DNA of 64,000 bases, from positions 38,304 through 102,303 of the forward strand of contig JAJYLW010000007.1 of assembly GCA_021787475.1 (NCBI GenBank). The letters run 5' to 3'. Positions within the stretch are counted from its first letter, which is position 1, and each line of letters begins with the position of its first letter. A program made the position numbers and the translations under genes. This document shows positions 2,474-7,091 of the stretch, in pieces. Source of the stretch: Actinomycetes bacterium. GTDB taxonomy: Bacteria; Actinomycetota; Thermoleophilia; BMS3ABIN01. The notes under the pieces are model-generated. The model worked only from the letters and a program-made list of their open reading frames with translations, ran no database searches and was not told the origin of the DNA.

Positions 2474-3618
2474 CTATCCTTCCTCGCCGCCGATAGTGAT
2501 GTCCTTGGCCGCCTCGCTCTGGGGCGGGAAGTACCTCAGCGCCGTAATCGTGGGCAGCACGGCAGAGACGATGACGACGCTAATCAGCACCGAGAACTAG
2601 GTTACGGTGATTATATGCTGGCTAAGCCCGTAGAGTGAAGAGATGATGCCAAAGGTGAGGCCGGTGCTCATGAGCAGCGTCGTAAACACGCTGTCTTCTT
2701 TGTGGTATTTTTTGGCGAATGGGAAAACGCCGGCGAACTTGGTCACCAGTTTGATGGCGAGAAACATGGCTGTGATGGCCAGCGCCCCCTCGACCTCCCG
2801 CAAGTCGACATTAAGCCCTCCTTGGAAAAAGAAAAGGGCGTCACCATGGCAAAGGCGGCTCCGCATTTTGTTGCGCAGCGGCTTGTGCCTGGCCAGGAAG
2901 CGGGAGAGGACCAGGCCCAGAAAGAAAGCAGGCAGGCCCGGCTGGTTATTTCCTGCTCCCCCCAGCCATTCCAGCAAAAACAGGCGGAGAAAAAGGAACT
3001 TCAGCTCGGGCTCCACAACCTTGTTGCCGAATTTTTCTACAAACCAGGGATAAATCCGGGGCAGGCCCAGTAGAGCGGAAATTGATGCAATTACAAAAAA
3101 AGAGAATAGACGTTAAAGTTAAAAAACAGCAGCGTCAGAAAAATGGCAGTGAGGGCGTCCTCGACAAATGTCGCTGCCATCAGCCGTTTCCCAAAAGCCG
3201 TCCGCGAGAGGCCGGTTTCCACCAGGACTGCGTAAACAACGGCCAGCGAGGTAGTAGAGAGCGCAATCGCTGCGATTTCAGAGGCGTCAAAAGTCCAGCC
3301 AAGCAGGTAATAAGCGGCTATGAACTCAAAGACGAAAGGAACAAAGAACGCCGCCCCTCCGATGAGCAAAGCCTCCCGGAAATGTTTTTTAAAAAGATCA
3401 ATGTCTACTTCTGCCCCGGCTTGGAATGAAAGATAGATGCTTCCAAATGAAGCGAGAAAGGCAGTAAACGGCAGATTGTTTGGTACGTTAAAGAAATTGC
3501 CTGCTATTACGCCAAAGGTTATCTCGCAAACCGCGGCCGCGATGCCAAATCTCACCGAGATCAGGCTGGCCAGAAACACCAGGGTAAAAAAAATGGTTGC
3601 AGCCAGAAATACCGACAT
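2474..3618 (-). pseudogene. CPA-type cation:proton antiporter, disrupted (in-frame TAG at 2597-2599, frameshifts near 3095 and about 2815-2870)
   Basis: N-part ORF 3091..3618 and C-part ORF 2597..3016 are adjacent pieces of one antiporter. Reading through TAG continues FSVLISVVIVSAVLPTITALRYFPPQSEAAKDITIGGEEG* to 2474. A shifted frame restores FVIASISALLGLPRIYPWFVEKFGNKVVEPELKFL between the pieces and AFAMVTPF inside the second. Confidence 0.85.
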
Positions 3619-3641: not shown

Positions 3642-3725
3642 AAAAAAAGGCCTCTTCTGCATTAGCAAGAAGAAGCCATTAGCGCCCGCGGATGGGGCGC
3701 GTTTGGTGAGCTTCATCACCAGGGC
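3642..3725 (-). promoter_or_regulatory. fluoride riboswitch (crcB motif) with overlapping intrinsic terminator, upstream of antiporter
   Basis: Minus strand GGTGATGAAGCTCACC-AAAC-GCGCCC-catccgc-GGGCGC-TAATGGCTTCTTCT; then 10-bp hairpin GGCTTCTTCT...AGAAGAGGCC followed by TTTTTTT (3649-3677 hairpin, 3642-3648 T-run). Confidence 0.9.
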
Positions 3726-3741
3726 CTCAGCCCGTTTTGCG

Positions 3742-5517
3742 TTAAGTGATTTTTTCGGGCTCCTTTGCGATGATATTCTCGATCTCCGTAAGCTCCTGCC
3801 TGGCGCTCTCAAATGTCCGCAGCCGCAGCCGCTCTTCGAACTGCTGCAGCTCCGCCTCGCTTTTCTGCTGGGCCTGACGCGCGGCCATGAGAGCCTGGCG
3901 GATGCTCTCTTCGGTGCTGTCCACGGTATCATCCAGCCGGCCGCTGAACTCCTTGAGCGTGGCCCCGATCCTGGCCACGAAATCGTGGCGCAGGCGGCCG
4001 CAGTGGCGGTCGATCTGTTTTTCCAGCCGCTCCCGCGCTTCCTTCAGGATCAGGTTGTGCGCCAGCCGCCGGGGGAGCAGCAGCGTCGCCGATTCGGCCA
4101 TCGACTCAAGCGAGACCTTGACATCCTCGTCGATCTTGAACTGAAAGCGGGACTCGGCCGCCAGCGATTCATCGATGGTAAACGGTTCTATCTTGAGGTC
4201 AAAGATGCGGGAAGAGATCTCAACCAGGTGGCCGATGATGACGTTGGTACGCTCCAGCAGGCGGCTGATGATGCGAGCCAGCATCTTCTCCAGCTTCTTT
4301 TCTTCCTCCAGCCGGAAATCCGTGAAGATTTCCTGGATGCGCTCATGCACATAGTCGTCAAACAGCCGCGCCAGGGCGCGGTTGCCCTCTTTTTTGACCT
4401 CCTGATAATATGCGCCAATATCGGCGCCCGCCGCCCCCGTCTGGCGGATCTTCAGTTCGTTTAAATCTTCTTCGAGGACGCCGGCAATCAACTCGTTGGC
4501 CTCCGCCCTCAGCAGGCGGGTGCTGTCCCGGCGCTCCTGCTTGATATCTGCCAGGGCTTCCTCAAACATGCGCATTTTTTCTTCCAGGTCCTGCAGCGGC
4601 TCGCTTAGGCTTTTTTGCATCAGCTGCGCCGAAAAAGCTTCCTGGGATATCAGGTTCCTGATTTTGCCGACGGCCGAAATCAAAAAGACGCGCCCCTTTT
4701 CCCCGAGCAAGAACCTGTCCAGCATCTGCTCAAATGCCGGCAGGCCGCTTGCATCCAGCCCCGCCTCGCCATCGCCGGTTTTCGCATCCAGCGCCTGCCT
4801 GGCCGACAGCGGAAAAATCTGAACATCATCCAGTCCCGCCTGTTCTTCGATCACCTGCCGGGTAAACTCCAGCGACTCCTGCCTGTCGGCGGCGCTGACC
4901 ATGTCAATCTTGTTGAGCACAAAGAAGATTCTGGTGGCATACCCCTTGAGGTCGCCCAGGAACTCGAACTCCGCCTCTGTGATCGGTGGATCGACACTGA
5001 CCATGAACACGGCGGCGTCCGCATGAGGCAGGTAGCGGTAGGTTGTGTCCGTGTTATGGCCGTGCACCGAGGCAATGCCCGGAGTGTCAATGATCTGGAC
5101 GCCATTTTTCAGGTATGGTGACGGATAAATGATCTCAACCCTGCCAACATTTTTCTTGTTTTTGGGGTTATGCTTCTCCGTGATGTAAAAGGGCAGGTCG
5201 GCGGCGTCAATCTCCCGCCGGGAGCCGTCGTTGAAGAAAACCTGCATCTCAAGAGCATCGCCGAACTTGATGATGGTGATGATTGATGTCAGCGGAATGA
5301 TCGCTGTGGGCAGCAGGTTTTCACCCAGGATGGAGTTGATGAAGGTGCTCTTGCCCCGCTTGAATTGCCCGGCAACGACCAGCGAGAATTCGTTTTCGGC
5401 AATCTTGCGGCTGAGCGAGTCCAGCACCTGTTTGGCCGCCTCGCCCTCGACGGCGCCGAGCAGCCCCGCCGGAACCCGCGCCAGCCTGTCCTTCAGTGTT
5501 GAATAATCTTCCAGCAT
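3742..5517 (-). CDS. dynamin-family GTPase (bacterial dynamin-like protein)
   Basis: GQFKRGKSTFINSILG P-loop, TSIITIIKFG, DTPGIASVHGHN, LNKIDMV; long coiled-coil C-terminal part. ORF is open from 5556, but residues 1-13 are riboswitch terminator sequence, so start MLEDYSTLKDRL at 5517 is preferred. Confidence 0.92.
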   Translation of the reverse strand: MLEDYSTLKDRLARVPAGLLGAVEGEAAKQVLDSLSRKIAENEFSLVVAGQFKRGKSTFINSILGENLLPTAIIPLTSIITIIKFGDALEMQVFFNDGSRREIDAADLPFYITEKHNPKNKKNVGRVEIIYPSPYLKNGVQIIDTPGIASVHGHNTDTTYRYLPHADAAVFMVSVDPPITEAEFEFLGDLKGYATRIFFVLNKIDMVSAADRQESLEFTRQVIEEQAGLDDVQIFPLSARQALDAKTGDGEAGLDASGLPAFEQMLDRFLLGEKGRVFLISAVGKIRNLISQEAFSAQLMQKSLSEPLQDLEEKMRMFEEALADIKQERRDSTRLLRAEANELIAGVLEEDLNELKIRQTGAAGADIGAYYQEVKKEGNRALARLFDDYVHERIQEIFTDFRLEEEKKLEKMLARIISRLLERTNVIIGHLVEISSRIFDLKIEPFTIDESLAAESRFQFKIDEDVKVSLESMAESATLLLPRRLAHNLILKEARERLEKQIDRHCGRLRHDFVARIGATLKEFSGRLDDTVDSTEESIRQALMAARQAQQKSEAELQQFEERLRLRTFESARQELTEIENIIAKEPEKIT

Positions 5518-5523
5518 GACAAT

Positions 5524-5595
5524 AAAAAAGCTCCCGCAGTTAGCTGCAGAAGCCATAAGTCCCTGGGGACGTTTTAGGCGAGCTTCATCGCCTCA
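5524..5595 (-). promoter_or_regulatory. fluoride riboswitch (crcB motif) with overlapping intrinsic terminator, upstream of dynamin-family GTPase
   Basis: Minus strand GGCGATGAAGCTCGCC-TAAAAC-GTCCC-ca-GGGAC-TTATGGCTTCTGCAG; overlapping 10-bp hairpin GCTTCTGCAG-CTAA-CTGCGGGAGC followed by TTTTTT (hairpin 5530-5553). Confidence 0.92.
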
Positions 5596-5658
5596 TAAAA
5601 TATGCGCTCTTTAACAGGAAATATAACAGTTCGGCCCCTTTTGGGCAAGATTTCTTTC

Positions 5659-7091
5659 TTACTGCCCGGTGGCGTAACGGATGATCATCTGGTCGGTGAG
5701 CCACTCCACCGGCGCCTCGTCGTCGGTGAGGATCTCGCCGCCGGGCTGGACCGTCCTGATCCGGCCGGCGATCTGGCGGGCCAGGGCGGCCACCGGCGCC
5801 GGCATCAGCGCCTGGCGGCCGCCACCGCGGCCGCAGTTGAGGGGCTGCGGGTGGCCACCAGCAGCTGGTTGAACTCGCCGGCTGAGAACGAATAAACCGA
5901 TGGGAAAACATCCCGCATGGTGGCGGCGATGGCATTCGCCAGGGCGCTGTCGCCAGGGACCTTGCCCACGTTCACCATCACTACTCAGTCTCCGGTGAGG
6001 TGGTCATCCGCCGCCTGGAAGAATTCGCGCGTCGCCAGGTAAAATGGTATGTACGGCTGGCGGAAGGCGTCGACGGCAATCAGATCATAATAATTTTTTG
6101 TGGTCATCAGAAACGGGCGGCCGTCGCCGACATGGACGGTCAGGTTTGCTTCATTCATGCCAAACAGCCTCCGGCCGATTTCAACTACCTTCGGGTCAAT
6201 CTCCACCCCGTCAACATGGACGTCCGGGTCAAAGTGGATCAGCTGGCCGGGAACGGTGCCGGCGGCGCTGCCGATTACGAGCGCCTGCTGCGGCGGCCGG
6301 CCGGAGCCGAACCAGGGCGCCAGCGAGAAATAATCCCAGTAACCGCCGGTCATGATCTGGCCGGGCTTGTAGATGGAGTGGACCGCCCAGCCTTCATTGA
6401 GCGTCAGCTCGCGGCTGCCGTCCGGCTGCTGGACCACCTCGATGTAGTGGTAGGGCGATTCGGCTTCATAGATATTGCCGGCCGATGGTTTGATCTGGCC
6501 CTGGGGGATGGCCAGCGCCGCCAGGATCAGGAGCGGCGGACCGGCCCCGAGCCAGCGGCCCGCCGCCGAGGTTGCCGCCAGGACGGCGGCAAACAGCAGC
6601 ATCGTGTCGCGGGTGCCGATCGAGGGAATCAGCAGGAAAACCGGCATGAAGGTGCCGAGAATGCTGCCGATGGTGGAGAGAGCGTAAAGGCCGCCGGAGA
6701 CATTGCCGGCGCTTTCCACCCGCTTCATGCTGAGGCGGATGGCGAAAGGGGTCACCATCCCGAGGATGGTCACCGGGAGCGAGAACAGGAGGACGGTGAC
6801 GCCAAACGATCCCAGGAAGGCGCCCGCGGAAACCTGCTCAATTCCTTCAATCGCAACGCTCATGATCGGCTTGGCCACAAACGGAACAACGGCGATCGTG
6901 GCCGCCGCCAGCGTCAGGCTGTAAAGCAGCCGCGGCTCCGGCCAGTGGTCGGCAACGCGTCCGCCCAGGTAATAGCCGGCGGTCAGGTAAATGAGAATGA
7001 GACCGATCAGATTGGCCCAGATGAACAGGGAGTCGCCGAAATAAGGAGCCAGCAGGCGCGAAGCCGACATCTCCACCGCCATCGTGGTCAT
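5659..7091 (-). pseudogene. spermidine-synthase-like (fused membrane/methyltransferase-type) protein, disrupted (in-frame TGA at 5985-5987, frameshift near 5815)
   Basis: 368-aa membrane plus SpeE-like part (VIGSAAGTVPGQLIHFDPDVHVDGVEIDPKVVEIG). The same frame continues past TGA as VVMVNVGKVPGDSALANAIAATMRDVFPSVYSFSAGEFNQLLVATRS; after a 1-nt shift QALMPAPVAALARQIAGRIRTVQPGGEILTDDEAPVEWLTDQMIIRYATGQ*. Confidence 0.8.

Follow-up and report, generated by a model that had tools for sequence, protein, structure and literature searches.

Bacterial dynamins are widespread, and for most of them neither a trigger nor a cargo is, to our knowledge, known. Mycobacterial IniA is a drug-induced dynamin-like protein (DLP) that carries out GTP-dependent membrane fission and has been proposed as a keeper of membrane integrity (PMC6715688). 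DynA is linked to membrane surveillance (PMC8844932). Most bacterial DLP genes are paired (PMC6104087).

Fluoride enters as HF, lowers the pH of the cytoplasm and dissipates the proton gradient (PMC11139923). The known fluoride regulon includes exchangers, enolase, pyrophosphatase and formate hydrogenlyase, and among the classes of gene associated with the riboswitch, Na+/H+ antiporters rank second in frequency (PMC11139923). Genes reported for the crcB motif comprise mutS and those for K+/Cl- transport and formate hydrogenlyase, and dynamin is not named among them (Weinberg, 2010). A link between a fluoride riboswitch and a dynamin appears in no paper found by our literature search, which did not cover the supplementary gene list of Baker (2012). 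It is possible that dynamin stands in an earlier list as an unremarked associated gene. The original prediction for this locus had placed dynamin outside the described fluoride regulon, and the literature found indeed does not name it.

Here we describe a fluoride riboswitch (RS1) in front of a gene for a dynamin-like GTPase. Both lie in a 64 kb stretch of DNA from an Actinomycetes bacterium, which is called the window (Table 1). The riboswitch and the GTPase superfamily are each of a known kind, while their conserved union, which defines a fluoride-dedicated dynamin clade, is absent from the literature found. We consider it very likely that this dynamin family is controlled by fluoride.

Table 1. 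Positions of the features of the riboswitch-dynamin locus in the window
Feature	Position	Strand	Basis
Candidate promoter of RS1 transcript, TTGCCC-17-TATATT, extended -10 TG	5620..5648	-	Consensus scan
Fluoride riboswitch aptamer RS1	5540..5601	-	RF01734, 40.3 bits; covariation in relatives
RS1 P1	5592-5589/5580-5577	-	Read from sequence
RS1 pseudoknot, GAAGC with GCUUC	5586-5582/5553-5549	-	Read from sequence
RS1 P3	5570-5567/5562-5559	-	Read from sequence
RS1 intrinsic terminator, 11 bp stem and T6	5524..5554	-	Fold, terminator scan, layout in relatives
Dynamin-like GTPase, 591 aa	3742..5517	-	PF00350, BDLP 2j68 profile, AlphaFold model, Foldseek
Second fluoride riboswitch aptamer RS2	3663..3729	-	RF01734, 31.1 bits (cut-off 34), E = 3.9e-6
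RS2 terminator, hairpin GGCTTCTTCTTGC-TAAT-GCAGAAGAGGCC and T7	3642..3677	-	Fold, -23.2 kcal/mol, z -3.8
Na+/H+ exchanger gene (CPA2-type), broken	2477..3618	-	PF00999 on first 175 aa; tblastn

The fluoride riboswitch and its expression platform

The leader sequence that had been read as a fluoride riboswitch 5' of a dynamin-family GTPase gene was located at 5592-5549 on the minus strand. The RF01734 covariance model bears out this reading. It matches 5601-5540 (-) over its full length (model positions 1-64) with 40.3 bits, above the gathering cut-off of 34. The E-value is 1.1e-7 when the entire window is searched with all 4227 Rfam families. Searched against the 1.84 Mb genome, RS1 is the top of two credible RF01734 matches (E = 7.4e-10), and the best match beyond the locus of RS1 and the second aptamer, RS2, has an E-value of 0.08. 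Like described riboswitches of this family, RS1 has P1, P3, the pseudoknot, the 3' element and a terminator that overlaps the 3' side of the aptamer.

The terminator stem (5554-5529, -17 kcal/mol, z about -3.2) is followed by a T6 tract at 5529-5524. The T6 tract and the overlap with the aptamer were correctly anticipated by the original prediction; the stem has 11 pairs and not the 10 first counted. Its 5' arm includes the pseudoknot strand GCUUC, so the aptamer and the terminator are mutually exclusive, which is the usual ON arrangement. Unlike in the described riboswitches, the 3' arm also bears a likely Shine-Dalgarno sequence (GGGAG, 5535-5531) 13 nt upstream of the ATG at 5517, and the hairpin would therefore mask the ribosome site too. 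This layout recurs in relatives. A terminator-like hairpin with a T tract lies just past the aptamer at 53 of 61 loci, as against 65 of 610 random windows from the same loci. These results support the proposed transcriptional ON layout.

Pairing was parsed in 106 of 110 distinct aptamers, and the counts that follow carry no phylogenetic correction. All four P1 pairs are present in 103 of the 106 and all five pseudoknot pairs in 105. Two-sided changes are seen in P1 (P1-3 CG83/TA17/GC4; P1-4 GC89/AT13/TA4) and in the pseudoknot (PK2 AT55/GC51; PK5 TA71/CG31). The aligned sequences thus indicate that both helices covary, with pairing kept through compensatory changes. On this evidence we class RS1 as a true fluoride riboswitch, a transcriptional ON switch with fluoride binding predicted. 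That RS1 is a decaying or chance aptamer is ruled out by score, conservation and linkage.

The candidate promoter comes from a consensus scan that gave three matches where 1.3 are expected in shuffled sequences, a weak signal when taken alone. Its TTATATTTCCT segment occupies the same position in the sister genomes G001 and G002. Further 5' lies a gene for a spermine-synthase-like membrane protein, which adjoins FxsA and is present as two reading frames in the window (5985-7091, minus strand). The G002 copy (L053:4190-5567) is likewise split, but in G003 and others one uninterrupted ORF encodes about 495 aa. This gene was considered as part of the RS1 unit and rejected, because the promoter-like site and the aptamer intervene; it is counted as the 5' neighbour.

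The dynamin-like GTPase

The gene is best placed, as judged from alignment, with its start codon at 5517, 23 nt past the 3' end of RS1. Another ATG, at 5556, belongs to the aptamer as its conserved AUG, and the N-terminal MLExYS encoded from 5517 aligns in relatives, hence the choice. The start codon has thus moved from the earlier annotation, which had rightly put an aptamer in the dynamin leader and had missed RS2.

Dynamin_N (PF00350) matches the protein with 101.7 bits against a cut-off of 27 (6e-29). The G motifs are all intact (GQFKRGKST, DTPG, NKID), and G50, K53-K56, T77, D144-G147, K203 and D205 are invariant in 72 sequences. Sequence profiles match the Nostoc BDLP 2j68 (1.3e-36), IniA (4.9e-22), the Campylobacter DLP pair and mitofusins. 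An AlphaFold model based on 72 homologues (mean pLDDT 86.3, pTM 0.73) shows a GTPase domain with a long helical neck/trunk; the predicted tip (450-472) is modelled with low confidence. The best Foldseek matches to this model are BDLP (9e-22) and IniA (6.6e-21), both with probability 1.0. Their global TM-scores are only 0.40-0.46, and a different hinge state or domain arrangement is therefore possible. As modelled, the protein has the BDLP/IniA fold. It resembles Nostoc BDLP (2j68) and mycobacterial IniA (6j72) in its GTPase domain, long helical neck/trunk and tip region, while identity to them is about 18-19%. No transmembrane stretch stands out in the protein.

IniA is stress-induced and the gene described here is predicted to be so too, except that the expected trigger is a fluoride RNA switch and not cell-wall drugs. 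No second DLP gene was found in the window next to the dynamin-like gene, and the riboswitch-linked dynamin is usually single, unlike the mostly paired bacterial DLP genes (PMC6104087). LeoA, DynA and CrfC belong to the same superfamily. The LeoA model of PADLOC (PDLC03839), a family marked by full-length matches and paired leoBC genes, gives 78 bits over residues 138-565, a superfamily-level match. The DynA model (NCBIfam NF052648) gives 73.6 bits, far under its cut-off of 1600, and the 591 aa protein lacks the tandem architecture of about 1190 aa that marks DynA. A phage-defence reading of the gene was set aside, as the PADLOC matches are at superfamily level only. Nothing seen at the locus pointed to phage defence or to a vesicle context, in contrast to LeoA, DynA and CrfC.

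Linkage of aptamer and dynamin across relatives

A dynamin homologue is present in 12 of the 19 genomes of the taxonomic family. In 11 of the 12, no more than about 40 nt separates the start of the ORF from an aptamer; in G006 the closest aptamer is some 600 nt upstream. Of the seven family genomes that lack the dynamin, four gave no aptamer match at E <= 0.01. At the level of the class, 16 of 149 genomes have a strong homologue, and an aptamer lies at most 60 nt upstream in 14 of these. The two exceptions are G006 and G086; in the latter the aptamer adjoins the dynamin gene at its 3' end. No aptamer was found at the five weaker dynamin relatives (other DLPs) in this 149-genome sample.

A wider scan, in which a single genome stood for each species, found 80 homologues in many phyla. 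The aptamer is directly upstream on the same strand in 64 and within about 1 kb in five; for the remaining 11 no aptamer was found in the DNA examined, and a few of these contigs end just upstream. The aptamer model used (R1, built with the pseudoknot helix as nested structure) came from the own class, and Rfam's own model was therefore run as an independent check. With it, all 50 tested genomes carry a fluoride riboswitch, 48 of them above the cut-off. Exactly one is present in 22 of the 50, and comparison of coordinates links it to the dynamin in 21 of these. Where the original prediction turned on whether other genomes share the arrangement, dozens do. The carriers come from about eight phyla, including Actinomycetota-assigned genomes, Thermodesulfobacteriota, Nitrospirota, Bacillota and Planctomycetota. 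In a midpoint-rooted tree of 81 proteins with several long branches, mostly riboswitch-linked sequences stand apart from five non-linked DLPs, with scattered losses. A single origin of the riboswitch-linked clade is suggested by this tree and is likely, though not proven.

Among side observations on the aptamers, the loci L103, L080, L076, L095, L108 and L110 carry divergent, back-to-back aptamer pairs with about 100-250 nt between the two members. Each pair has the dynamin on one side and, on the other, a gene in the opposite orientation, which is CrcB in L103. The fluoride regulon of the deltaproteobacterial genome G160 (L091) is unusually large, with 11 matches to the riboswitch.

A second aptamer and a broken exchanger

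RS2 lies between the dynamin gene and the Na+/H+ exchanger gene. Its score is just below the cut-off, and it is supported by conservation in G002, where a counterpart of 30.3 bits occupies the same place and both aptamers flank the dynamin as well. Apart from RS1 and RS2, the genome of the window, which is 98.7% complete, has no credible fluoride riboswitch. Comparison with the intact G002 relative by tblastn places frame changes in the exchanger gene near 3095 and within 2872-2812 and an in-frame TAG near 2598. The intact G002 exchanger matches TIGR00932 (CPA2) with a score under the cut-off. The broken copy in the window is either a pseudogene or an assembly error; the nearby dynamin, phosphoesterase and MFS genes are intact.

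These results bear on whether the dynamin is simply the first gene of an operon in which RS1 mainly serves later genes, above all the exchanger. Exchanger genes are often found 3' of the dynamin, and the rank of Na+/H+ antiporters among riboswitch-associated genes (PMC11139923) would fit. Against this, a separate aptamer and terminator, those of RS2, stand before the exchanger, and of the two genes it is the exchanger that is broken here and the dynamin that is intact. The G001 locus keeps the aptamer-dynamin pair with neither exchanger nor CrcB, and 21 of the 50 tested genomes have their only aptamer at the dynamin. We regard this explanation as largely refuted and its probability as very small.

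Neighbouring genes and fluoride exporters

As in known RF01734 regulons, the neighbours across carriers include CrcB, exchangers, enolase, pyrophosphatase and formate-hydrogenlyase-like genes; the first controlled gene is here a dynamin-like GTPase, a class unnamed in the fluoride-riboswitch literature found. Neighbour clusters were identified from one representative each, and for the H+-pyrophosphatase one member was checked. Near the dynamin genes are Na+/H+ exchangers (15 loci), universal stress proteins (13), MFS transporters (9), DUF190 (6), enolase (6), CrcB (5) and H+-pyrophosphatase (4). Formate-hydrogenlyase-like subunit genes of a hydrogenase/Hyf-type proton pump are near the dynamin in G001, G003 and G004.

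Several of these neighbours deserve separate mention. In three species of the genus (L052, L054, L055) the hydrogenase/Hyf-type subunit genes lie directly 3' of the dynamin. At the 13 fluoride-riboswitch loci with genes for universal stress proteins, which include L106, L107, L114, L118, L121, L143 and L150, these genes stand beside exchanger and dynamin genes, and the representative matches PF00582; universal stress proteins are not among the targets named in the fluoride-riboswitch reviews found. DUF190 (PF02641) lies 3' of CrcB in the fluoride-riboswitch operons L054, L061 and L118, and some copies also match P-II, which hints at a small regulatory protein.

Neither a CrcB/Fluc gene nor a CLC gene was detected in the genome of the window, and no CrcB was detected in the sisters G001 and G002. 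In G003, G004, G011, G013 and G015 the locus has the order aptamer - CrcB - DUF190 - aptamer - dynamin, and in several of them it occupies the same place beside FxsA and the spermine-synthase-like gene. In the genome of the window, G001 and G002, the exporter was therefore lost or never present there, with the dynamin kept. CrcB was detected in 14 of the 50 carrier genomes, many of which are MAGs of unstated completeness; it was not detected in the other 36, and neither CrcB nor CLC was detected in 12.

The frequency of membrane transporters beside the dynamin (the exchangers, CrcB with DUF190 at 5-6 loci, and the Hyf-type pumps) could mean that the GTPase organises or clusters Fluc, the Na+/H+ exchanger and hydrogenase-type proton pumps and has no part in membrane repair. 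This idea is unlikely in our estimate. It is countered by the lack of a constant transporter partner, by the many loci in which the dynamin is the sole evident riboswitch-linked gene, and by the 36 carriers without detectable CrcB.

Metal fluorides bind GTPases as transition-state analogues. A dynamin GTPase inhibited by GDP-metal-fluoride might thus be made in larger amounts to compensate, as proposed for enolase and pyrophosphatase, and genes for enolase and H+-pyrophosphatase do occur in the same neighbourhoods. GDP-AlF4 has been used with IniA (PMC6715688). Compensation would be expected of a housekeeping protein, and here 7 of 19 family genomes do without the dynamin, the dynamin is nearly always riboswitch-linked where present, and the five other DLPs of class relatives are not so linked. 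Since most members of the clade are linked to a riboswitch and several related genomes have none, the gene has the look of one dedicated to stress, and compensation is the poorer fit. We judge it improbable.

A proposed role in the fluoride response

Our preferred explanation joins the ON switch with a fluoride-dedicated family of BDLP/IniA fold that remodels the stressed membrane, and as a whole we hold it to be probable. Without fluoride, the pseudoknot strand would pair into the 11-bp terminator, the Shine-Dalgarno sequence would also be covered, and the dynamin gene would be off. Binding of Mg-fluoride would stabilise the RS1 pseudoknot and block the terminator, and the dynamin-like GTPase would be made. 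We infer such binding and the ensuing induction in vivo from the aptamer and its platform. The GTPase would then use GTP to drive tethering, fission or sealing of a cytoplasmic membrane stressed by HF entry, a stress that in this proposal would also comprise the loss of the proton gradient.

By analogy with IniA and DynA, the protein is likely to act on the membrane by tethering, cutting or sealing it during fluoride stress. Membrane protection as the role of the family, reached by the same analogy, has about an even chance of being correct. Both original suggestions, membrane repair or fusion in fluoride stress and a GTPase perturbed by metal fluorides, are plausible. The dynamin would act alongside fluoride exporters and in some genomes in their place. 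In a bolder and rather doubtful version, the family would confer export-independent fluoride resistance: it would be made only on fluoride binding, would seal or excise HF-damaged membrane, and would be the main remaining intact fluoride-controlled gene in genomes like that of the window. In this version, GDP-metal-fluoride complexes might even tune the GTPase.

Seen in this light, the scarcity of CrcB among carriers, and the genomes with neither CrcB nor CLC, mean that the dynamin family may help to explain how cells survive fluoride without a known exporter. The family may thus add a non-transport, membrane-remodelling arm to the fluoride response. A whole dynamin clade is tagged with the condition in which it is needed, fluoride, and this makes its physiological role directly testable.
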